Assembly: GCA_021108405.1 (NCBI GenBank)
Contig: JAIOQW010000058.1
Location: 1-33,317 of the forward strand
Reading direction: 5' to 3'
DNA from: Methanosarcinales archaeon
Lineage (GTDB): Archaea; Halobacteriota; Methanosarcinia; Methanosarcinales; Methanocomedenaceae
DNA length: 33,317 bases
The stretch's first letter is position 1. Every line of letters begins with the position of its first letter. The translations under genes and the position numbers were made by a program. Positions 1,675 to 27,686 of this stretch are shown in pieces. The notes beneath the pieces were generated by a model, which had not been told where the DNA came from, made no database searches, and saw only the letters and a list, made by a program, of their open reading frames with translations.

Positions 1675-1707
1675 CTTGAAACAACATTATAATAACTGGA
1701 TTTTCGC

Positions 1708-1844
1708 ATAACAATACATATACGAACTCACTTCGCATATTCTTCCCTCATATCGAACGCTTCAATCATTATCCTCACCTTTTCTCATACCTTCCCAACC
1801 AACCTCTCAAACTTCGCATAATCCACCACAACCCCATCATCCAG
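1708..1844 (-). repeat. pglX 3'-tail copy A plus downstream flank
   Basis: Positions 1844-1785 encode the ending [20 protein letters not shown], one of six copies of the PglX C-terminal tail in this window. The following ~75 bp (1784-1708, minus-strand order) are homologous to the same interval after copy C. In copy A this flank reads as a short frame containing IEAFDMREEYAK. Homology between the two flanks stops at ATAAC on the plus strand (GTTAT on the minus strand), at 1708-1712 here and 6110-6114 in copy C. Confidence 0.75.
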
Positions 1845-4588: not shown

Positions 4589-4705
4589 GTTTAACGATTG
4601 TATATAATGTTTCCAGTATACACAACATTGCAACAGAATGGACTAATTTCCCAAAGTGCAAAGTGAAAGCCCGTAGTGTATAGGCTGTATTATATGTTGT
4701 TGCTT
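4589..4705 (-). other. Imperfect hairpin between accessory genes, weak attC-like candidate
   Basis: This 154-bp gap between the 451-aa gene and TIGR02391 contains an imperfect long stem. On the minus strand the left arm near 4700-4675 (ATATAAT, TATACAC) pairs with the right arm near 4625-4600, with bulges, and ends in GTTAAAC at 4595-4589. The GTTRRRY core and bulged stem fit an integron attC. The matching R'' box is poor, with only its AAC present, so this is a weak candidate. Confidence 0.25.
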
Positions 4706-4715
4706 TGCTTCTCTT

Positions 4716-6071
4716 TTAATGAATTTTGCTTTCTTCAACTTCAATTCTTTTCCAATCATCGTCGAATCTTTTTATTATATCTTGCATTAACCAATCTCTT
4801 TTTCGCATAGGCCATATTTCTAACCCTTTTTTAGAATAGTAAAGGAACATATCGTTGATAGTAGCAAAAATATTACGACATGCTTGATCATAGTCTTTGC
4901 AGTCTTCTGGGGACATAGAGATATTTCCCGATTGAAGGTAAAGTTCTGTAACTCTTGGTTCTATTTTCTGCATTTTTAGGATAAATTTATCTTCGGAAGT
5001 GTTTCCACACTTGTATTCTCCAAAGGAATTAATCCCTTGTTTGCCAAGTTCTACCATTCCATTTAAAATGGGGCGAATGGCATCTAATACCTCCTCCTTC
5101 GTACCAAAACTGTTTTCGAAGACGTTTTTTTGTGATTTGTAGTCCTCATTCCAAAAGACTTCTATATCTCCAAGTATTTCATTGCTCTTGAAGCCAAGAT
5201 GGGGCATATTTTCTGGTAAAAATGGATCTATCCAACCTGTGCGACAAATCCAATTTACATTCCGAACGTCTTCCAAATCGTGAGCTATAAACAGCCACAC
5301 TACATGGGCCGGAATTTCATGCCATCGTGCTTTAACTCGCTCATTACGATAATAGTTATCATATTTTAATTTCTCTGTTGCTTTTTGAATAATTGTTCTA
5401 ATTACATCCTTCGAATAATGTTTGTCTAAAATAATAGTAGCAGAATAACGTTTGGCTCCAGCATGGCTTACATCTCTTTGACTTACGATTGTATATGATA
5501 GTTTATCTCTAACTTTCATTTCTAAAGCCAAACCTTCATCTCGCACATGTCTATTTGTACAGGTACCGGTATCATCATAAGGTGTTCCATCTTTTGGACA
5601 GATTTTTTCATAAGCAATAAACAGGCGTGCCCAGTCTTGAGCATCAATGATGAGATAGTCACATCCAGTATCAATAGCCGTTTGCACAAAATCTCTTTGT
5701 GCATCGTCTTGAATATTTCCAACTGCTCCAAAAACTATTAGCCCAAGTTCTGGAATTTGTCGCAGTTTAGCGAATTGATGAGTCACCTTTTTGCTTGAAA
5801 CCCTTGTGAAGCTCTTTCCTTTCAGGACGAAAGCGGTTAACCTCTTATTCCCCCTAACATGTACATGACTTGTCAGTATATCTGCTATTTCTGTAGGACC
5901 ATGAGGAGTTTCGTTTGGATCATATAAAATCTCTCGAATAAATCGTTCCATTTTGCTTTTCTCATCCAAATTCCTAGTTTCATTAAGTATCGCCTCGTTG
6001 ATAGTGGCATCATGAATAGCTTTAATTTCCGAAAACTCATCTACGTCATGTATTTTAACAAGTCGTCCCAT
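4716..6071 (-). CDS. Unknown 451-aa accessory defence-locus protein
   Basis: I do not recognise the family. The sequence is soluble, with no signal peptide or membrane span. The N-terminal ~60 residues are charged and helical. Residues ~60-160 look like an alpha/beta domain (PTEIADIL, TAFVLKGKSF, LGLIVFGAVGN, CDYLIIDAQDWARL) whose strand-K pattern could be a restriction-endonuclease-like fold, but the catalytic set is not clear. The C-terminal ~200 residues are helical with several Trp. The ATG at 6071 has a GAGGT site 9-10 nt upstream. The gene sits downstream of pglX-tail copy C and its shared flank, with a cassette-like boundary at GTTAT (6114-6110), and is followed by the hairpin at 4589-4705. 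A role in defence is inferred from position only. Confidence 0.6.
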   Translation of the reverse strand: MGRLVKIHDVDEFSEIKAIHDATINEAILNETRNLDEKSKMERFIREILYDPNETPHGPTEIADILTSHVHVRGNKRLTAFVLKGKSFTRVSSKKVTHQFAKLRQIPELGLIVFGAVGNIQDDAQRDFVQTAIDTGCDYLIIDAQDWARLFIAYEKICPKDGTPYDDTGTCTNRHVRDEGLALEMKVRDKLSYTIVSQRDVSHAGAKRYSATIILDKHYSKDVIRTIIQKATEKLKYDNYYRNERVKARWHEIPAHVVWLFIAHDLEDVRNVNWICRTGWIDPFLPENMPHLGFKSNEILGDIEVFWNEDYKSQKNVFENSFGTKEEVLDAIRPILNGMVELGKQGINSFGEYKCGNTSEDKFILKMQKIEPRVTELYLQSGNISMSPEDCKDYDQACRNIFATINDMFLYYSKKGLEIWPMRKRDWLMQDIIKRFDDDWKRIEVEESKIH

Positions 6072-6109
6072 TTAGAATACCTCATGATATGGTAGCCAAA
6101 CAATTGTAG

Positions 6110-6250
6110 ATAACGTTATACATACGAATTTACTTCCGCATATACATCCCTCTGATCGAAAGTCTCCAGCTTCAATCCCATCAATTCTTTCACTTATACC
6201 TTCACAACCAACCATTCAAATCTCGTATAATTCACCACAACCATATTATC
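6110..6250 (-). repeat. pglX 3'-tail copy C plus downstream flank
   Basis: Reading the minus strand from 6250, the frame DNMVVVNYTRFEWLVVKV ends at TAA 6196-6194. It is a degenerate copy of the PglX tail. It lies about 20-25 bp after the stop of the AlbA_2 gene (6273) and is not part of that gene. The next ~80 bp match the flank of copy A, including a frame LKLETFDQRDVYAE against IEAFDMREEYAK. The match ends at 6110. Confidence 0.7.
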
Positions 6251-12478: not shown

Positions 12479-13327
12479 TTAAATTAATCTGTTTGCATCA
12501 ACATCATAACCACACGATTGTAACTCTTTAACCATCTCTAATTCCCAACCTTTGTTAAAAGGTGTGTACAATGCCCCCACAAAATCGGAAGGATGCTCAA
12601 AATCGATTTCATCTTTAAAAAGAACAAGTACCTTAGTTCGTCCAAGCTTTCCAATAAAATAACCCAATTCCAATATTACATTTTGACGTGCTCTCAATTT
12701 TACGGAGTCGGGGAAGTTATTTGCTTTACACCCCTTATCATCAGGTGAAAGAAGAACAATTGCAAATGAAATTTTTTCAGATGATGCTTCAAATTTTTCT
12801 ATAATTGTTCTTCCTCTATTTGGCTGTTCATGTAAAATTATAGGTTCCAAATCTAATTTTTCAAGGGTTCGAGCAACGGTTTGCTTCATTTCTTCATCAT
12901 GACCGTGAACTATAAAAATTTTGTCGTTTTCGGGTATCATTCCAACTACCTCCATTCCATTATTGCCGCTTGCATGCTCTGATTTTTTATATCCAGATGG
13001 ACCTAAAATTAGTTCATCAGTTATATCCACACCTTTATCTGTAACATACCATTCATTAGAAATAGGAAGTATGACTCTACTTGACCTTATTTCAGCTCTA
13101 ATTTGTGGTAATAATCTTGAAGAATCAACATCAGTTCTATTAATCTTAATTCTCTCTATGTCATCAGGTTCAATTGATTTTCCATTGACTATAATATTAG
13201 TTCCATACTCATAGGGATTTAAAAATTTTTCAGTAAGTTGTTCTTTTGATAAATCCAACTTTATTTCATTGTGCCGACGGTCGGATTTTGTTGTAATCCT
13301 CACATGATAATATTCAGCTTCGCTCAT
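12479..13327 (-). CDS. TIR-like effector, PF10137 type (predicted nucleotide-binding)
   Basis: This 282-aa protein has a C-terminal PF10137-type TIR-like domain from about residue 135. It shows [11 protein letters not shown] (~136-146), [20 protein letters not shown] (~161-180), VLLSPDDKG, and [19 protein letters not shown] (~212-230), in which E220 is the likely catalytic Glu of TIR NADases. This domain is the effector of Pycsar/CBASS-like systems (Cap12 type), where it depletes NAD+. The N-terminal ~110 residues form an unrecognised beta-rich domain, perhaps a sensor. No cyclase gene is in the window, so activation by a cyclic nucleotide is not supported here. The ATG overlaps the stop of PglX-C (ATGA), so it is translationally coupled to BREX. 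Confidence 0.85.
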
Positions 13328-13382
13328 ACCTTCCCCACCAACCCCTCAAACTTCGCATAATTCACCACAACCCCGTCATCCA
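13324..13382 (-). repeat. pglX 3'-tail copy F (in the C-terminal half gene)
   Basis: This is the reference copy of the repeated tail, coding [20 protein letters not shown], in its native place at the end of PglX. The other five copies occur at 1785, 3437, 6194, 11448 and 12126. Confidence 0.8.
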
Positions 13383-15054
13383 GATCAATATCAATATACT
13401 CCAGCGCCTTATTATTCAGCACCTCATCATACTCCGCAAGCTCCTCTATCAATTTTGAAAGCCTGCTTATCTCCCGAACATCCTTATTTGACTCAGGCGA
13501 AAGCATCCCAATCCTGGCATCGAGCTTATCCTCAAGCTTAAGCAGGTAATCAGTCCTCATCTTAGCCAGCGTTTCCTTATCATACCTGTGCATATACACC
13601 AGCGCATTGAACCCCCTGCCCTTGCCCGATGTAAAGAGCCAGTAGATGGGTCTTTTCTTGTACATTTTGACATGGTCTTTGAAGAACGACTTCAGGAAAT
13701 AGTCCCGTATCACTTTCTCAGACGATTCACTACCCTTCTTTGACTTCGACAGCGTCCCGGCAATAAATTCAAGGTTCTCGGCAAGGCTCTCTGCCCCGAA
13801 TGTGACTTTCAGGAATTCCCTGAACCTGGACACGATGTCGTCTTTGAAGTATTCATCCTCAAGTATGGGGATGATGTTATCTTCATCAGGCATGAAACTC
13901 GGCTCAGGAACCTGCTGCAAGTAGTCATTAATGGTCTCACCCTGGTTAGCCAGAATCAGACCCGGCTTGTCCAATGAGTAGCGGCCGAACATGCAGCCTA
14001 CTGAATATGAGATGAACTCCTTGATGGTATCAGTCAGCAGCAGCGCTTCCAGTTCTTCCTTGCTCTTATTTCCCTTGTAGCGATAATGTGGATTGCATGT
14101 CAGCGTGATCTCGGAAAGTGGTACCTCTGGCGTTAGCTCATCCTGCAGGCCGTATGCGTCGATAAAGATGCGGTTGTTTTCTTCTTCCAGCTGCTGCATC
14201 TTTAAAGTCATTTCTCGCCAGTGAACGCGGAGTTTGGTGTAGGTTTCACGTATAGTTGGTTGGTGGTATTCAGATTGCAGGAGCGGGAGAGTAGTGAAAT
14301 TCCAAGAGGTTTCGTAGGAGTCCCAGTCGGTTTTGGACATTAAAATATTTGTCAGAGTATTACTATTAATAAGTTTGGGCAAATCCGATTTGAATGGAAG
14401 ATTAAGCACATGACCTAATTTAAAATCCAAAGTTGGGGCGAGCATCTTGATAAGATGATTGGTGATTTTACTATTCAAAAACGCTTCACAGTTATGTATT
14501 TCAGACATATTTTTTGGAAAACCCATCGGCCCTTTTGCATCAAACATGAATCCTACAGGGACATGCCGTACAGCAAAAATTCCGCTTGATATTCCTGACC
14601 AAGTAAAACCTGTTTTGAACGCATAATCCCCATTGTAGTTATGAGAACGTATTCTACCTGTTTTTTGATCCGAGAATTGTTTCATTGATTTTCCATCATT
14701 TTCCCAATTAACAACAAACTCGTAGTTACCAGACCATTTACGGAAATCTCCACCCTTTATATAACTGAACCAACAACGACCACTTTCTATAGCTTCTGAA
14801 TTTGATTTCATTTTGAAAGCTATATTCTTTAACGTTACTTCATACCACAGCCTCAGAAACAAGTCATTGGAACCTGTTGTTAATCCCTCGCGTGTTTCAG
14901 CCACATTCGAGAATTTGTGTACTTCTGAAAATATGTTTAATATCTGATTCGATGCCCAATAAGCAATCGGACTCCCCGGAATCTTCTTAAAATCCGCTGT
15001 AGAGGCACGATAGAAATTGGGAACCGGGTTATTTGCTGAATCATCGTTGGTCAT
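13324..15054 (-). CDS. pglX: PglX C-terminal half (target-recognition-like), as a separate gene
   Basis: This 576-aa protein begins MTNDDSANN and at residue ~14 enters [20 protein letters not shown], a motif found in the middle of intact BREX PglX proteins. The rest matches the PglX C-terminal half: [25 protein letters not shown], a region near 270-310 with coiled-coil character, [20 protein letters not shown], and a helical tail LEEL-type region ending [18 protein letters not shown]. There is no methyltransferase motif. With the half at 16913-18775 it makes a PglX of normal combined length (~1200 aa). The split resembles HsdM/HsdS of type I R-M. Its start lies inside the end of a YhcG remnant frame. 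Its stop overlaps the TIR gene. A 134-aa copy of its C-terminus is at 1785-2189. Confidence 0.85.
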
Positions 15055-15380: not shown

Positions 15381-16916
15381 TTAGACCGGCCCTTTAAGAC
15401 GGTATCGTGTAGAACGGCCAGCTCCCAATTTATCTGCCAATCCCATTTCGACCAATTTTCTAAAGTCGCCTGATATAACAGGACGGGTGACATCAAATTC
15501 CACTTCACATTGCCGGCTGGTAAGTTCTTTACCTTCGACGAGCCATTGCATCATCTTGCGTTGCCTTTCGTTCAATTTGGCTTCCACTGCCGGAGTTACC
15601 TGCATCAACTGCTCAGGCACACGAAGGCGCTCGATGTTATCACCTGGTCCAGGGAAAGTTACCTGGAAATACCCTGTATCAGTACCGATAAGAGGCTTGT
15701 CCAGTCCATGGTTGAGCATCTGCTCGCGCATACGCCGAAAGCCGCTGCCACGCTCCTCTATGCGGTGGAAATAAGAGAGACACTGGGCCAGAACAGGATT
15801 ACGTGAACATGGCCTGTACGTTCCCTTGCGCAGGTTGGCAAGTGTGATAGGTGAAGGTGGAAGGCCAGGGCTGGAGACAATCACCTTATCAGAGAAGACC
15901 TCAAGCATGATCTTGCGCCCGGCGTCTTCGTATTGCCGGTGGGCCACAGCATTGACAAGTGCCTCCCTCATAGCCTCAACAGGATATTCATCAAGTCGCA
16001 CACGGTTAAGTCCCACAACTTTCATGGGATGCCTGGTATTCCTATCTATAAAAGCAATGGCACGCTCAATAACCACCGGCATAGGTCCCCGAATATCCTC
16101 ATGATCCCGTGGTTCCCCGTCAGGCTCAGAACTGCGGTAAGCATCCGCAAGCACACGACACTGAGGGAACACTGCAGACGGGTCTTTAGCCAGCAACACC
16201 ACACCAGCCGCTGTTGCGTAGTATTCCCTCGATTCCGATTCACGCCAAACAAGGCCACGCAACATCACGCCAGCCAATACATCTTCAGAAGACAACTCAT
16301 CGATATTCCTGCCTTCGGCTACACCCACAAGCCTGCGAGCCATGTCATGGTTAAGATCCTTCCAGCGGATTCGCATCAAAGGTTGAGATTCGAACTTAGA
16401 AGTAGCCTTTATGGTCTGGTCTGCTATTAGGTTCTCATCACTTGTAGGAACAATGCCGAACCGATCCTGAAGTAGCCTTACTAATGCGGTTCTTACTTCC
16501 TTCTGAAGTTCTATGACATTGCCAAAACGTTTATACTTAAAACCGTCAGCTTCCAGTTCCTTGAGTAAAACATCTGTACAACTCTCTCTTTTTACAGTAC
16601 GTTCGCCCTTTATAAAAGCCAGAATAGGCAATTCCCTTTGCTTTGCATGTCTGTATTCAGTGTGAGTTATAGATAGTTCACCCGCCGGAGTCCCATACTG
16701 CACGCCCACGATCAGCAAATACATCTGGCAATTGTCAAGTGACCTCAGGCAGCCTTCGAAAACCTTATCAGCAGATGCTGGTTCATATTCATAAAGTACG
16801 GGCGTGCAATGTGCCGATAGGAACGGATCGGTGTTCACAAGATTCTGGATGATGAGCCGCTCATCTTCAAGTTCTTTCTGCACGGAACTGACAAATACTT
16901 TGAACAATGAGGTCAT
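15381..16916 (-). CDS. DUF4062 + RecG-C/HATPase + winged-helix protein between the PglX halves
   Basis: This 511-aa protein has three parts. An N-terminal DUF4062 domain (KVFVSSVQKELEDER at 6-20, MYLLIVGVQYG near 65-73, HTEYRHAKQRELPILAFI near 85-102) resembles TIR/SLOG-type folds that often sense or process nucleotides. A middle RecG-C/GHKL-type domain has EYPVEAMREALVNAVAHRQYE at 310-330, SSPGLPPSPIT, and RIEERGSGFRRMREQ. A C-terminal winged helix (~455-511) has LNERQRKMMQWL and VTRPVISGDFRKLVEMGL. The AlbA_2 domain usual in the middle class is replaced by DUF4062. Its ATG overlaps the PglX-N stop (ATGA), so it is part of the brx operon. It may be a regulator or a separate effector. The sequence does not decide. 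Confidence 0.85.
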   Translation of the reverse strand: MTSLFKVFVSSVQKELEDERLIIQNLVNTDPFLSAHCTPVLYEYEPASADKVFEGCLRSLDNCQMYLLIVGVQYGTPAGELSITHTEYRHAKQRELPILAFIKGERTVKRESCTDVLLKELEADGFKYKRFGNVIELQKEVRTALVRLLQDRFGIVPTSDENLIADQTIKATSKFESQPLMRIRWKDLNHDMARRLVGVAEGRNIDELSSEDVLAGVMLRGLVWRESESREYYATAAGVVLLAKDPSAVFPQCRVLADAYRSSEPDGEPRDHEDIRGPMPVVIERAIAFIDRNTRHPMKVVGLNRVRLDEYPVEAMREALVNAVAHRQYEDAGRKIMLEVFSDKVIVSSPGLPPSPITLANLRKGTYRPCSRNPVLAQCLSYFHRIEERGSGFRRMREQMLNHGLDKPLIGTDTGYFQVTFPGPGDNIERLRVPEQLMQVTPAVEAKLNERQRKMMQWLVEGKELTSRQCEVEFDVTRPVISGDFRKLVEMGLADKLGAGRSTRYRLKGPV

Positions 16917-18775
16917 CGTGGCACCTCCATTTGATTTGTTTCAATATTTCTGGCCTGCATCACTGCCTCACGCAGCCATGCATCCTTTTCCGCTTCAGAA
17001 CTACCATCCACAATACGGATATAAGCCCCTTTATACTCAGGATACTGTACATCCTCAATAACAAAAGCTGTGGTTGAAACGACCTCGCCGCCAATGCTGT
17101 CAAATGCTCGTGGTCCAAGATGGGCCATGGACAGTATGGTATGGTTGTCCAGAATGCTCTCACGGAGTTTTTCAAAAGATGAAAGGAACATCCAGCTTTG
17201 CATGGTTATCATTGTAACCATGCCTTTTTGAATCGTCATGTCGAGATTACGCTCTATAAACATGGCAAAGAAATCAGACTTGCTGTTAGGGTAATTGTCC
17301 AGTGCGAATGTCTTCAACCCTGCATTCATACCCTTGCCACCCATGTACGGCGGGTTGGCAATGACCACATGGTATTTTGGACTGAGATAATCTGCCTGCT
17401 CCAGGACCTTGAGCACTTTTTGGTGGGTGGTGAAGAGTGTCAGGTTGCTGGATAAGTTCTTCTCGTTCAGCATGTGCCGGATGTCTGATACATTCGTGGT
17501 GGCTGGGCGGATGAGGGAGCCGAAGTTGTCGGCCTCCCCGAACTGGAGTAAGGTGCGTTGTAAGTCGGTGGTGAACAGGTGGCTATCGATGGCTGCCATA
17601 TACGACCGCAGTTCATCGTCTTCAAAAGAGATGCTTTGCAACGCGCAGATGTTGGGATGGACCGGGTTGCGGAAGAAATTGTGCTGTTTTTTTCTGGCTT
17701 TCATGGTCAAAGCAAAAGCTGCCAGTTCACCGGCACGCTTGTCAATCTCAATACCGAAGAGGTTGTGGCTTAAGATCTTTTCAGGAATCTCGGAGAGAGC
17801 ATAGCCTTCCTCTTCGTAGATGGAATGGAGCAGGTCAAACGCATAGACCAGCATGTGTCCGGAGCCGCAGGCAGGATCGCAAATCCTGATTTCTTCCGGG
17901 GAGTTAATTCTCAGAAAATCTGTTTCACTTTGCTCAGGTTTAATGTAATATTCCATCTGCTCGAATAAGCGGGAATGATGGCGATTAAGCATCCACAAAC
18001 GCCCCAGGGAGTTTTCAACAAGATAGCGGACGATCCAGTAAGGCGTGAATAACTGTGTAGCTGCCGGAATATTCTCCTTACTGATCTTGATGTTCTTTTT
18101 CATATCCTTGAACACCTTCTCCTTCCTGGGAGCAATGTAATCCTGGTATATCCACCCAATCACCTCAACTTTCTTCCAGTCATCTTCTTTGATAATCTCA
18201 TTTAAGTCCACCAGGATTGAATCAGTATGCAACAGCTTACCAGGGAACAGCAGTTCAGTATAATCCTCAATCGGTTCGAACAAAAACGGCATAATATCAT
18301 TCAAATAATTACACAGGCTCAGCGTAAGGTACTTATACAGCTCCTCATCCTTACTCCCCGACTTCAAATCGATAACAGTATCCCGGTCTATGTTTAAAAA
18401 ATCAAGTTCCGGGGACTTTGTAAGGATATCTGGTTCCTGCTTATTCGGCTCATCAGAAGAAAACACCTTAACAGGAAGGTACCCGTTGACCTCCATGAAC
18501 TTTAACGCAACAAAACGGTTGAACCATGTATAGGTGATCTCATCTATGACTTGGTCATAGCTTTTCTCCTTGACCTCCCTCACAAGCTGCTCTCTCTGCT
18601 GCTTGATTCTTTTATTAAAGACCCTACCACCAATGACAATAGAATCCTCGAACTCTTCATCCACATCCTGTATAGTATCAGGAAAGATGCCATAATAAGC
18701 AGCCTTTCTTTGTGTCTCCTGGAAAAGCTTATCCCTGACAGTATCTGAGAACCGGATGATACTGGCTTTATCCAT
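16913..18775 (-). CDS. pglX: BREX PglX N-terminal half (adenine-specific DNA methyltransferase)
   Basis: This 620-aa protein contains the catalytic half of PglX. AdoMet motif I DPACGSG is at residues 300-306 and the N6-adenine motif IV NPPY at 473-476. The preceding FTPYWIVRYLVENSLG and the N-terminal helical region are typical of PglX. It ends NQMEVPR just after VDGSSEAEKDAWLREAV, the point at which intact PglX continues to [16 protein letters not shown]. That continuation is found at 15054. PglX methylates host DNA and is needed for self/non-self discrimination in BREX. The start ATG is 2 nt after the brxC stop, and the stop overlaps the next gene. The two halves could act together as an HsdM/HsdS-like pair. 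Loss of function is the alternative. Confidence 0.9.
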   Translation of the reverse strand: MDKASIIRFSDTVRDKLFQETQRKAAYYGIFPDTIQDVDEEFEDSIVIGGRVFNKRIKQQREQLVREVKEKSYDQVIDEITYTWFNRFVALKFMEVNGYLPVKVFSSDEPNKQEPDILTKSPELDFLNIDRDTVIDLKSGSKDEELYKYLTLSLCNYLNDIMPFLFEPIEDYTELLFPGKLLHTDSILVDLNEIIKEDDWKKVEVIGWIYQDYIAPRKEKVFKDMKKNIKISKENIPAATQLFTPYWIVRYLVENSLGRLWMLNRHHSRLFEQMEYYIKPEQSETDFLRINSPEEIRICDPACGSGHMLVYAFDLLHSIYEEEGYALSEIPEKILSHNLFGIEIDKRAGELAAFALTMKARKKQHNFFRNPVHPNICALQSISFEDDELRSYMAAIDSHLFTTDLQRTLLQFGEADNFGSLIRPATTNVSDIRHMLNEKNLSSNLTLFTTHQKVLKVLEQADYLSPKYHVVIANPPYMGGKGMNAGLKTFALDNYPNSKSDFFAMFIERNLDMTIQKGMVTMITMQSWMFLSSFEKLRESILDNHTILSMAHLGPRAFDSIGGEVVSTTAFVIEDVQYPEYKGAYIRIVDGSSEAEKDAWLREAVMQARNIETNQMEVPR

Positions 18776-22916: not shown

Positions 22917-23015
22917 CGCAATTAAATTAATGAAGATATTATTTAAGGCTGTGGTTTAGAGACTTTTTAATATATTCCGGAGATGCCATACTTGCTTAAT
23001 AGTTTGTGAAATACT

Positions 23016-23158
23016 GAGACCGTTACATTACATGTTGGTACTATTAAAATAACCGCAGATGAACACAGATAAACACGGATACGCTGCCTGAAAATCTGTG
23101 TTCATCTGTGTTTATCTGTGGTTTCATAAGATTCACCAACACGAATTGTAACGGTCTC
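23016..23158. mobile_element. 143-bp palindromic MITE with an 8-bp target duplication
   Basis: The ends are inverted: GAGACCGTTACA at 23016 and its complement TGTAACGGTCTC ending at 23158, with partial extension to a shared TGTTGGT. The inside is a long hairpin of ACAGATAAACAC-type sequence. GAAATACT flanks it at 23008-23015 and 23159-23166. The second dinB copy shows the empty site with a single GAAATACT near 26419-26426, which confirms insertion after the duplication or loss in one copy. It lies at the dinB stop codon and does not alter the protein. Confidence 0.9.
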
Positions 23159-23165
23159 GAAATAC

Positions 23166-24248
23166 TTAAGTAGTGATCAGGAAATAATCAAACGTTGTCT
23201 GAATCATCTTGCTTTTATTCAGGTTAGAAAGCCTGATACCAAGTAGCCGTATCTTTCTTCCATAAAAGAATTCACTTGATAGTTCCTTTGATACACGTTT
23301 AATAATATCCCGGTCCTGCGAACTAAAACCCAGGGTCTTTGCCCTTGTAAAAGTAGTAAAATCCTCAAGCCTTACTTTTACTGATACGGTCCCGAAGGAA
23401 TAACCTTTATGCACTAATGATCTACACACCTTTTCTGCGATCATATCCAGAGTTTTGATCAATATTACCGGATCATCTGTATCTTCCTCAAATGTATGCT
23501 CCCTGCTGATGGATCTTATCTTAGAACTTTCTTCTACTTCACTTTCATCCTGACCCAGAGACAAACTGTGCATTTCAGAACCCCATTTACCAAATATTTC
23601 AATGAGCTTATTTTCATCAAAACAGGCCAGTTGACCTAAAGTGTTAATTCCCATCCCTGTCAATATCTTCTCGTTCTTCCTTCCAATACCAGATAGTTTA
23701 CGCACCTTTAGGGGTTCTAAGAATCCCACAACCTTATCAGGCTCTACCACTGTCAGGCCGTCAGGTTTGTTAAAGTCAGAGGCTATCTTGGCCACCGACT
23801 TGACAGGAGCAATGCCAATAGAACAGGTAAGTTTTTCTTTGTACATGATCATGGATTTGATCTGTTCGGCAAGCTGAACAGCCTCTTTATAATCCTGTAC
23901 CCTGTCGCTGATATCCAGAAATGCCTCATCTACACTTACCTGTTGGAACTTATCAGCATAGGATCTAAGGATTTCCATGATCCTGCAGGAGACCTCCTGA
24001 TAAAGGGACATGTTCACAGGCAAAAAAACAGCATCCTGACATAACCTGTATGCTCGGGATATTGGCATCCCTGAATGTATCCCGAAGTTGCGGGCTTCAT
24101 ATGAACAGGTACTGACTACACCTCTGCCCTTACCTTTTTTTGGGTCAGACCCTACAACTACAGCAAGTCCTGTGAGTCCTGGATTCTCACGCTGTTCCAC
24201 TGAAGCATAGAAACTATCCATATCCACATGAAGGATGATCCGGTCCAT
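23166..24248 (-). CDS. dinB: DNA polymerase IV (Y-family), copy 1
   Basis: This 360-aa Y-family polymerase has the catalytic motifs intact: LHVDMDSFYASVEQ at 6-19 (D9) and VSVDEAFLDIS at 104-114 (D107, E108). The helix-hairpin-helix region KLSGIGRKNEKIL and the little-finger domain follow, with a normal family length. It carries out error-prone synthesis past DNA lesions. The copy at 26424-27506 is almost identical (V8M is one difference). The ATG 24248 is the only good start. The terminal ITT matches the other copy despite the MITE at its stop codon. Confidence 0.95.
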   Translation of the reverse strand: MDRIILHVDMDSFYASVEQRENPGLTGLAVVVGSDPKKGKGRGVVSTCSYEARNFGIHSGMPISRAYRLCQDAVFLPVNMSLYQEVSCRIMEILRSYADKFQQVSVDEAFLDISDRVQDYKEAVQLAEQIKSMIMYKEKLTCSIGIAPVKSVAKIASDFNKPDGLTVVEPDKVVGFLEPLKVRKLSGIGRKNEKILTGMGINTLGQLACFDENKLIEIFGKWGSEMHSLSLGQDESEVEESSKIRSISREHTFEEDTDDPVILIKTLDMIAEKVCRSLVHKGYSFGTVSVKVRLEDFTTFTRAKTLGFSSQDRDIIKRVSKELSSEFFYGRKIRLLGIRLSNLNKSKMIQTTFDYFLITT

Positions 24249-24511
24249 ACTACTGCTCCTCTATTGTTCAATATTGGGTATTAGAGATACTGCCGTTTTC
24301 TGCTGATCAATACCATCAGAGGTAATTGACACAACTAACAGACACATATACAAGATAATTCTTATATTGATATTTTTGTTTTGTGCTATTTACACTATTT
24401 ACACTATTTGCAGTTTTATCTATCCAAAAGATAAGGCAAAAGCTGTGGGCGATATGGCCATGTTAGCCGAAGCAATTATCAGGAAGACGTGTATGGAGCT
24501 TGATATTGAGG

Positions 24512-24934: not shown

Positions 24935-25168
24935 TCACAATTTTTTTAAAAAGTTGTTATACTCATATACACTGAGTTCTATCTCTCTTAGAATCTCTTT
25001 TATTAGAGGACGTGCTAAATCTCTATTGGAATGGTGAGGGACAGTCGTAGTTCTCCCATCAGGGTGTCTATAAAACACATGACTCCCTTTTTGACGTACT
25101 TTCCTAAAACCTAATTTAAACAGCAATTTATCCATTTTTTTGGCATCAATTATTTGAAGCCTACTCAA
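24935..25168 (-). CDS. hicA: HicA family mRNA interferase toxin
   Basis: This 77-aa protein fits HicA: KMDKLLFKLGFRKVRQKGSHVFYRHPDG, with the conserved G-S-H motif (catalytic His near residue 30), then TTTVPHHSNRDLARPLIKEILREI. HicA cleaves mRNA and is held inactive by HicB. The ATG overlaps the stop of the antitoxin gene (25165-25168), and the antitoxin comes first. The C-terminus is about ten residues longer than many HicA proteins. The pair lies between gene remnants and may stabilise the mobile region. Confidence 0.9.
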   Translation of the reverse strand: MSRLQIIDAKKMDKLLFKLGFRKVRQKGSHVFYRHPDGRTTTVPHHSNRDLARPLIKEILREIELSVYEYNNFLKKL

Positions 25169-25386
25169 ATACTCACCTCAACTTGCTGGATTCCAACAAA
25201 TTGAGGTAAATGTTGTATGGTTTCAGGCCCCATTTCTTCTAAAACTAATTCAAGTACTTCTTTAAGGTTTTCCTGAAGTTCATCAAGGGTTGCAGCCTGA
25301 GTATGAGCTCCTGGAATTCCTGGGACAATTGCCACATACAAACTGGTCTCCGGATCCTTTTCGATATATGCAGTTAATCTGAACAT
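25165..25386 (-). CDS. hicB: HicB family antitoxin
   Basis: This 73-aa protein has the HicB-type fold pattern: LTAYIEKDPETSLYVAIVPGIPGAHTQAATLDEL, then ENLKEVLELVLEEM. It is a short form with no C-terminal ribbon-helix-helix or HTH domain, so it should bind HicA but may not bind DNA itself. Start ATG 25386. It overlaps hicA by 4 nt. Confidence 0.9.
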   Translation of the reverse strand: MFRLTAYIEKDPETSLYVAIVPGIPGAHTQAATLDELQENLKEVLELVLEEMGPETIQHLPQFVGIQQVEVSI

Positions 25387-25427: not shown

Positions 25428-26018
25428 CTAATTTGCCTTATATCTATTTGTATTCGGATGTGAATCAGCATTATAGTTCTTAACTAGCATTGATAGAGGG
25501 GTTTCCCACATATTGCCCATACTCAACCCCTGACAGAGGTGGACGTTACCATATGGATCGAGATGAACTCTCTCTGGTTCTTTTAAATCTTCATACGGAC
25601 ATTCTGTGAATTCTTCCCACCTTCTTTGCGGAAGCCCTTCTACCAACTTTTCAACTGCCCTCCCTCTAAACATAGTGCCACCACCAATAACTGGCGCTCC
25701 TTTATTTTGCTCCTTATCTATATCTGCTTCAACCGTAGGTTTCTCAATGCAAATCGAATCGACAGGCATGCTTAATCTTTTTGCCGCAGCTAAAGCTCGT
25801 TTAGCAAGGTTATCTTTTTCCTCTTCATAGTGGAATGAATCGTCACTTATACTAAGATCAGATATTCCTAATTTACAAAGAGGGGTGAGCCAAAGCTCTG
25901 CGTCTTCCTCAGATGTTGCGTAATACGCATTAGTTACTACACCTACTTTGAACCCCATACTACGGGCAATTTTGATTCCCTCAAGCATTAGAGGGTAGAA
26001 TAAAAACTGTCCTATCAA
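25428..26018 (-). pseudogene. Radical SAM protein, 5'-truncated
   Basis: About 190 residues of the C-terminal part of a radical SAM protein are open. They begin FLFYPLMLEG, which normally follows a G-G-E-P motif, and continue with GFKVGVVTNAYYA, LSISDDSFH and VHLDPYGNVHLCQGLSMGN near the end. The N-terminal part with the CxxxCxxC cluster site is missing, so it cannot be active. The break lies near 26015-26040, beside a small hairpin (GTCCTA...TAGGAC) and the attC-like site. It may be the stump of a cassette or of an insertion target. Confidence 0.75.
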
Positions 26019-26042
26019 ATTTTAGGACTCCGGATTTATTGA

Positions 26043-26132
26043 ATATAACGTTCTGCGAGTACCCGAAGTTGGCGATCAACGGGAGAGCCAGTTTGGGCGA
26101 AGCGTAGCTGAGCCGGGTACTCGCTGTTAGGC
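26043..26132 (-). other. attC-like recombination site (integron-type candidate)
   Basis: On the minus strand the segment begins GCCTAAC (26132-26126), a perfect RYYYAAC R'' box, followed by AGCGAGTACCCG. It ends CGGGTACTCGCAGAAC then GTTATAT (26049-26043), a near GTTRRRY R' box. The inner arms GCGAGTACCCG/CGGGTACTCGC pair over 11 bp. Between them is a variable part with CAGCTACGCTTCGCC, a common attC loop element. The length is about 90 bp, normal for attC. It follows the 3' end of the methyltransferase fragment, as a cassette attC would. No integrase gene is in the window. Confidence 0.5.
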
Positions 26133-26148
26133 GAATGTTGCCCTGTTT

Positions 26149-26364
26149 TTATATTTTGATAAAACTATACGTTTTACTCCCTTTTGAGAAATATTTAAAT
26201 GAATTTTTATTTGTTACCTTCGTAATAATATTTTTTTCTTTCATTAAAGGATCGTATAAAGATAAAATTCCATTTTCCTTTAATACACGATTTATTTCAT
26301 ATAGAATTGGATCGGGTTTTTCTAATTCATGAAAAAAATCAAATAAATAAACAACATCTATACT
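26149..26364 (-). pseudogene. SAM-dependent methyltransferase, C-terminal fragment
   Basis: The frame on the minus strand (about 71 codons) reads DVVYLFDFFHELEKPD, EINRVLKENGILSLYDPLM and ends SKGSKTYSFIKI. This is the C-terminal third of a class I methyltransferase of the UbiE/arsM-like type. The N-terminal part with the AdoMet motif I is absent. The upstream end is cut by the dinB duplication block (border about 26365), and the stop is followed after ~16 bp by the attC-like site. Confidence 0.7.
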
Positions 26365-26423
26365 TTTGAGACTTTTTAATATATTCTGGAAATACCATAC
26401 TTGCTTAATAGTTTGTGAAATAC

Positions 26424-27506
26424 TTAAGTGGTGATCAAAAAATAATCAAACGTCGTCTGAATCATCTTGCTTTTATTCAGATTAGAAAGCCTGATACCAA
26501 GTAGCCGTATCTTTCTTCCATAAAAGAATTCACTTGATAGTTCCTTTGATACACGTTTAATAATATCCCGGTCCTGCGAACTAAAACCCAGGGTCTTTGC
26601 CCTTGTAAAAGTAGTAAAATCCTCAAGCCTTACTTTTACTGATACGGTCCCGAAGGAATAACCTTTATGCACTAATGATCTACACACCTTTTCTGCGATC
26701 ATATCCAGAGTTTTGATCAATATTACCGGATCATCTGTATCTTCCTCAAATGTATGCTCCCTGCTGATGGATCTTATCTTAGAACTTTCTTCTACTTCAC
26801 TTTCATCCTGACCCAGAGACAAACTGTGCATTTCAGAACCCCATTTACCAAATATTTCAATGAGCTTATTTTCATCAAAACAGGCCAGTTGACCTAAAGT
26901 GTTAATTCCCATCCCTGTCAATATCTTCTCGTTCTTCCTTCCAATACCAGATAGTTTACGCACCTTTAGGGGTTCTAAGAATCCCACAACCTTATCAGGC
27001 TCTACCACTGTCAGGCCGTCAGGTTTGTTAAAGTCAGAGGCTATCTTGGCCACCGACTTGACAGGAGCAATGCCAATAGAACAGGTAAGTTTTTCTTTGT
27101 ACATGATCATGGATTTGATCTGTTCGGCAAGCTGAACAGCCTCTTTATAATCCTGTACCCTGTCGCTGATATCCAGAAATGCCTCATCTACACTTACCTG
27201 TTGGAACTTATCAGCATAGGATCTAAGGATTTCCATGATCCTGCAGGAGACCTCCTGATAAAGGGACATGTTCACAGGCAAAAAAACAGCATCCTGACAT
27301 AACCTGTATGCTCGGGATATTGGCATCCCTGAATGTATCCCGAAGTTGCGGGCTTCATATGAACAGGTACTGACTACACCTCTGCCCTTACCTTTTTTTG
27401 GGTCAGACCCTACAACTACAGCAAGTCCTGTGAGTCCTGGATTCTCACGCTGTTCCACTGAAGCATAAAAACTATCCATATCCATATGAAGGATGATACG
27501 GTCCAT
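26424..27506 (-). CDS. dinB: DNA polymerase IV (Y-family), copy 2
   Basis: This is a 360-aa near-duplicate of the copy at 23166-24248, at offset 3258. It has the same catalytic residues (D9, D107, E108) and is intact. Differences seen at the DNA level are a handful of substitutions at both ends. The region upstream (27507-27686) matches the other copy and then is interrupted by a mobile element, so regulation could differ between the copies if the promoter extends that far. Confidence 0.95.
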   Translation of the reverse strand: MDRIILHMDMDSFYASVEQRENPGLTGLAVVVGSDPKKGKGRGVVSTCSYEARNFGIHSGMPISRAYRLCQDAVFLPVNMSLYQEVSCRIMEILRSYADKFQQVSVDEAFLDISDRVQDYKEAVQLAEQIKSMIMYKEKLTCSIGIAPVKSVAKIASDFNKPDGLTVVEPDKVVGFLEPLKVRKLSGIGRKNEKILTGMGINTLGQLACFDENKLIEIFGKWGSEMHSLSLGQDESEVEESSKIRSISREHTFEEDTDDPVILIKTLDMIAEKVCRSLVHKGYSFGTVSVKVRLEDFTTFTRAKTLGFSSQDRDIIKRVSKELSSEFFYGRKIRLLGIRLSNLNKSKMIQTTFDYFLITT

Positions 27507-27686
27507 ACTACTGCTCCTCTATTACCTAATACTGGATATTAGATTATACTGCCGTTTTCTGCTGATCAATACCACCAGAGGTAATTGACACAGCAAACAG
27601 ACACATACTTGAGATAATCCTTCTATTGATATTTTTGTTTTGTGCTATTTACACTATTTGCAGTTTTATCTATCTAAAAGATAAAG

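Follow-up and report, generated by a model that had tools for sequence, protein, structure and literature searches.

The window analysed here, a 33,317-nucleotide stretch spanning contig JAIOQW010000058.1 (assembly GCA_021108405.1) of a Methanosarcinales archaeon, encodes formylmethanofuran dehydrogenase subunit B (442 bits), which marks it as archaeal DNA. A BREX locus occupies positions 1775-22916. Its PglX is split into two ORFs (16913-18775 and 13324-15054), an additional PglX C-terminal fragment is found at 1785-2189, and 56-bp repeated gene ends occur at 1784, 3432, 6189, 12121 and 13319; the split PglX and the repeated gene ends look like swapped specificity segments. Two attI-like sites and one degenerate attC-like site in the BREX region (Table 1) suggest that cassettes were captured there. 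A short dispersed repeat with inverted halves at 22955-23162 is MITE-like and also occurs on contigs C188 and C66 of the same genome. A direct duplication of a dinB (DNA polymerase IV) segment brackets a HicA/HicB toxin-antitoxin pair (24935-25386) and the hairpin site that is the subject of this study, with HicA/HicB adjoining the cassette relic. Pairs of the HicA/HicB type are frequent integron cargo.

Read on the minus strand, the hairpin site has the order GCCTAAC-A-GCGAGTACCCG-loop-CGGGTACTCGC-AGAAC-GTTATAT. The first-pass annotation had described a perfect R'' box, an 11-bp inner stem, the loop element CAGCTACGCTTCGCC, a near R' box and a location just past the stop of a methyltransferase fragment, and each of these is present. 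The R'' box conforms exactly to RYYYAAC, the R' box departs from GTTRRRY by one letter, the two stem arms pair perfectly, and the methyltransferase stop (26149) lies on the same strand, 16 bp ahead of the site. The roughly symmetric spacers of a canonical attC, with an L-box stem carrying an extrahelical base, were not found; the spacers are 1 and 5 nt and the stem is a perfect 11 bp. Considered simply as DNA, the hairpin surpasses shuffled sequences by a moderate margin only (z = -2.4 for the minus strand and -2.0 for the plus strand). A covariance model, R1, was built from 13 sites outside of the window's order (other phyla and a phage), and the window site, which was not used in its construction, scored 93.4 bits (E ~6e-26). 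Since the motif was drawn from the same site family, this score places the site in the family but does not on its own prove that it functions as an attC.

Table 1. Cassette-related features of the window (all on the minus strand).
Feature	Coordinates	Strand	Evidence or remark
Putative attC-type recombination site (whole), 3' end of methyltransferase cassette	26043..26132	-	93.4 bits with model R1, site outside the training set
R'' box GCCTAAC (26132-26126) with outer extension CAACATTCGCCTAAC, cassette-end arm	26126..26140	-	
Inner stem, 5' arm GCGAGTACCCG	26114..26124	-	Covariation of the stem in relatives
Inner stem, 3' arm CGGGTACTCGC	26055..26065	-	
Unpaired 5-nt spacer AGAAC	26050..26054	-	Asymmetric; 1 nt on the opposite side
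R' box GTTATAT (26049-26043) with start of next cassette (GTTATATTCAATAAA)	26035..26049	-	Cut predicted at G^TT by analogy with attC
SAM-methyltransferase gene, 3' fragment (Methyltransf_11), of cassette	26149..26445	-	Intact copy (205 aa) on contig C102 of the same genome
Radical-SAM (YydG-like) gene fragment, next cassette	25428..26018	-	About 268 bp missing relative to C102
dinB segment, second copy (97%), cutting off the methyltransferase	26417..27684	-	First copy at 23159-24434
attI-like site	1702..1783	-	44 bits; directly behind the PglX C-terminal fragment
attI-like site inside the BREX region	6102..6186	-	26 bits, weak
Degenerate attC-like site behind gene 4716-6071	4602..4695	-	16.7 bits, weak

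The site was initially regarded as an isolated attC; however, model R1 identified twelve sites in the same genome at E ≤ 0.001. Copies are found on contigs C102 (96%) and C66 (83%), and others on C188, C192, C23, C27 and C39, while contig C22 carries a row of seven weaker sites on one strand. Strict sequence patterns were too narrow to retrieve the copies. A check proposed in the first-pass annotation, whether the copies follow different genes, gave a positive answer. The arrangement on C102 consists of a recombinase remnant, an attI-like insertion site, the intact methyltransferase gene and an attC, in that order, and the cassette-end arm on the R'' side matches the cassette start at attI in 10 of 14 positions. 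Block 25715-26367 of the window is equivalent to the C102 segment minus 268 bp and is broken where the dinB duplicate starts. C102 is the fuller parent, and the window copy is a rearranged single relic site. Beside the window site there is neither an attI nor a recombinase gene, a context from which the relic would have been separated by the duplication of the dinB segment and the 268-bp deletion.

A core motif derived from the loop was scanned against the genomes of 84,980 species and was found in 11: Heimdallarchaeota, GoM-Arc1, Aenigmatarchaeota, two Bacteroidales, Paludibacteraceae, Balneolaceae, Cloacimonadota, Chloroflexi, Omnitrophota and UBP2. In most of these, the layout AAC-A-stem-loop-stem-5 nt-GTT is preserved. 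A phage contig (IMGVR_UViG_3300028595_000036) presents about nine sites between its terminase and portal genes, each preceded by a small ORF that runs in the same direction; this row is a cassette array. The terminase gene of this contig apparently contains an intein. Repeated sites that each follow a co-directional gene, as expected of an integron array, are found in the phage, in Bacteroidales, and in genomes G018 and G022 (the genomes with G labels are mostly MAGs). Among 41 sites of the archaeal order, the stem accumulated 112 two-sided changes, compared to 40 in shuffled and 12-22 in slid controls. Wholesale contamination was set aside as an explanation, since G018 is one contig of 1.92 Mb and the window encodes an archaeal formylmethanofuran dehydrogenase subunit.

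In integrons, the sequence that opens a cassette is complementary to the one that closes that cassette, rather than to the opposite half of the recombination site. Among 38 adjacent pairs, cassette start and end match at 7.2 of 12 positions, compared to 4.6 for pairs drawn from different contigs (permutation p = 5e-5), and the complementarity spans about 15 nt at the start and end of one cassette. At least seven matches are present in 22 of the 38 pairs, and in 17 of those 22, position 11 does not match (A/G). In a UBP2 bacterium with an attI, a methyltransferase gene and an attC in succession, start and end are identical at 18 of 19 positions, with the sole mismatch at position 11. The complementarity expected of a circular intermediate is thus found overall, with the exception of the C22 row in the window's genome, in which cassette starts and ends, contrary to expectation, do not pair with their neighbours. 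In this row, the matches between starts and ends follow a permuted order (4762, 6150, 10714). It was considered that complementary ends of about 15 nt might be unique to the new family, but this idea was rejected because class-1 cassettes match at 8-9 of 12 positions with position 11 mostly matched. The distinctive features thus come down to two, the mismatch at position 11 and the 1/5 spacer.

To locate the attI, the end sequence of the first cassette served as a query for a matching start. Such a cassette start was found 64-191 bp past the recombinase stop at about 12 of the 16 loci, among them C102 of the window's genome. When aligned, the attI sequences present two imperfect palindromes (GGATATNCGAAC..GTTCGGATAT) flanking CCAAATTGGA and typically end in AACGA^GTT. 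An attI model, R2, gave about 100 strong matches in 40 genomes. With the training sites removed, 22 of the 23 attCs within 5 kb lie downstream on the same strand, and all 14 recombinase genes directly precede the attI in the same orientation. An attI beside a recombinase gene, as in an integron platform, is therefore present, while an IntI with the IntI-specific additional domain was not found there.

For 16 recombinase hits, a site lies within 5 kb. The site closest to the recombinase has the same orientation in every case, and it is located downstream in 14 of them and upstream in two. The best preserved arrangement is in G018, a single-contig archaeal genome of 1.92 Mb, where an intact tyrosine recombinase of 380 aa with HTH, SAM-like and catalytic domains is followed by two genes and then a site, with both attI and attC present. 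This recombinase exceeds the cut-off of the XerA-type model NF040815 (242 versus 220 bits) and does not pass the integron-integrase model. From an alignment, the IntI-specific insertion is missing in the recombinases of both G018 and G030. In a small tree, the G018 type branches separately from Methanoperedens XerA and E. coli XerC/D and is closest to the IntI clade without belonging to it. For the majority of XerA-like genes of Methanoperedens (TIGR02249 about 110 bits), there is no such site nearby, so the linkage applies to one branch of recombinases and not to all Xer relatives. Genomes G022, G026, G038, G191 and G188 retain only the last 60-100 recombinase codons, often ahead of an attI, as if the 5' part of the gene had repeatedly been lost in such genomes. 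Since many of the recombinases are fragmentary, the linkage to sites rests partly on remnants. In the window's genome, no intact recombinase of the site-linked branch was found, no IntI scored above the TIGR02249 cut-off, and the PF00589 hits have no linkage to the sites. True IntI proteins above this cut-off are encoded by order members G022, G077 and G080 and by Omnitrophota G193. The true IntI of G022 (contig C41) is accompanied by two different attC-like sites, GTTCAAC...GTTGAAC. The Heimdallarchaeota contig has a broken IntI-like gene next to its site, and an attI of the new type was not found there.

The window site is probably the 3' recombination site of a mobile cassette, present here as a relic copy, from an integron-like system with an Xer-type recombinase that lacks the IntI domain. 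This assessment, with which the first-pass reading of an attC-type cassette site on this strand agrees, draws on what can be read from the sequences themselves: the site family, the covariation of its stem, the terminal complementarity, the attI, the fixed order and orientation, and the absence of the IntI domain. The system is best summarized as a co-directional integron variant of the Xer type. The recombinase, encoded upstream and in the same direction as the cassettes, would insert them at an attI ending in GTTCGGATAT-NNNNNN-GTT behind its gene. The cassettes would be circles that start with GTTRRRY, continue with a gene and end with RYYYAAC and the hairpin. G^TT would be the point of recombination in both insertion and excision, and the substrate would most likely be one strand folded into a hairpin. 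That the domain-less recombinase performs the catalysis, that the substrate is single-stranded and that the cassettes are currently mobile is what we infer from this arrangement.

An alternative is that the sites, whether single or clustered, are ordinary integron attCs with no neighbouring integrase, on which a conventional IntI acts in trans. The R-box motifs, the complementary ends shared with class-1 cassettes and the true IntI proteins listed above, which could act in trans, are in keeping with this explanation, and IntI1 has recombined archaeal attCs (PMC9668308). The site itself argues otherwise. With a covariance model made from eleven class-1 attCs, it received 9.3 bits (E = 2.5), which is not significant though it was the top match in the window, while distant IntI-adjacent attCs from cyanobacteria, Omnitrophota and archaea received 26-38 bits with the same model. 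A poor attC score had been named at the outset as evidence against an attC; this came about with the class-1 model, whereas the family model R1 gave the high score described above. Thus, the attC type, the strand and the different host genes of the earlier interpretation were borne out, and its isolation was not. From the gap between these class-1 model scores, the window site is of a different type than an ordinary IntI attC: it appears to act like an attC, yet falls outside of the canonical IntI attCs. Its spacer is 1/5 and not 5/6, class 1 is without the position-11 mismatch, and neither do the adjoining recombinases have the IntI domain nor does the window's genome have an IntI above the cut-off. 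Ordinary attCs are accordingly an unlikely explanation.

A dispersed hairpin repeat of the MITE or REP kind, with no cassette function, would account for the many palindromic copies and their near-identity between phyla, but it is very improbable given that order and strand are fixed relative to genes, attI and recombinase, that cassette ends are complementary, and that the phage array serves different small genes. Least credible of all is an RNA element or transcription terminator, which would suit a hairpin directly past a stop codon; an Rfam scan returned no match, and it would leave unexplained why the outer boxes are conserved and why the ends are complementary over 15 nt.

In a broader sense, it is likely, though held with less confidence than the reading of the window site, that a second cross-domain class of integron, with a domain-less Xer-type recombinase, its own palindromic attI behind the recombinase gene and attCs with a conserved mismatch, explains many of the archaeal and bacterial attC clusters that appear to have no integrase. 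Archaeal integrons are not little known, as had been remarked of this site; they have been reported from 75 MAGs (PMC9668308), and their occurrence as such is nothing new. What would be new is a cassette system with a recombinase devoid of the IntI domain and its own type of attI and attC. No prior description of an Xer-type integron was found in the open-access papers searched, a scope outside of which lie most subscription journals and all preprints, and priority is not certain. PMC9668308 treats the IntI-specific domain as a requirement for integron recombination, with reference to Messier and Roy (2001), and uses it for finding integrons. If the proposed system is real, the need for this domain in recombination becomes directly testable, the missing integrase is supplied for many attC clusters seemingly without one, and there is a concrete route of gene exchange among archaea, bacteria and phages. 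For further searches and for building an assay, the sequence rules for attI, attC, end complementarity and the position-11 mismatch suffice.

The proposed system has in common with the class 1 integron (IntI1, attI1, attC) the GTTRRRY/RYYYAAC boxes, a hairpin attC, a cassette array and complementary ends. The class 1 IntI has the extra domain and points away from the cassettes, whereas the recombinase here is domain-less and co-directional; class 1 attCs mostly have a symmetric 5/6 spacer in place of the 1/5 spacer, and class 1 is without the mismatch at position 11. Archaeal attC arrays are shared with the archaeal integrons and CALINs of Ghaly et al. (2022; PMC9668308), in which a putative attI is also located downstream of the integrase gene. 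Those integrases were chosen for the IntI-specific domain, which the recombinases here lack, and the two systems are set apart by the integrase and not by a comparison of attCs. In the chromosomal integrons of Treponema (PMC3607928), the recombinase is transcribed toward attI in the direction of the cassettes, as it is here, but is an IntI. The XerA/dif and XerCD/dif systems have the recombinase architecture (above the NF040815 cut-off) and palindromic arms in common with the present system, which differs in its linkage to an attI and cassette arrays. Lastly, attC arrays carried by phages are described in work on phage-borne integrons and CALINs (PMC9892861), and the IMGVR phage array is of this kind, with the new site type in use.
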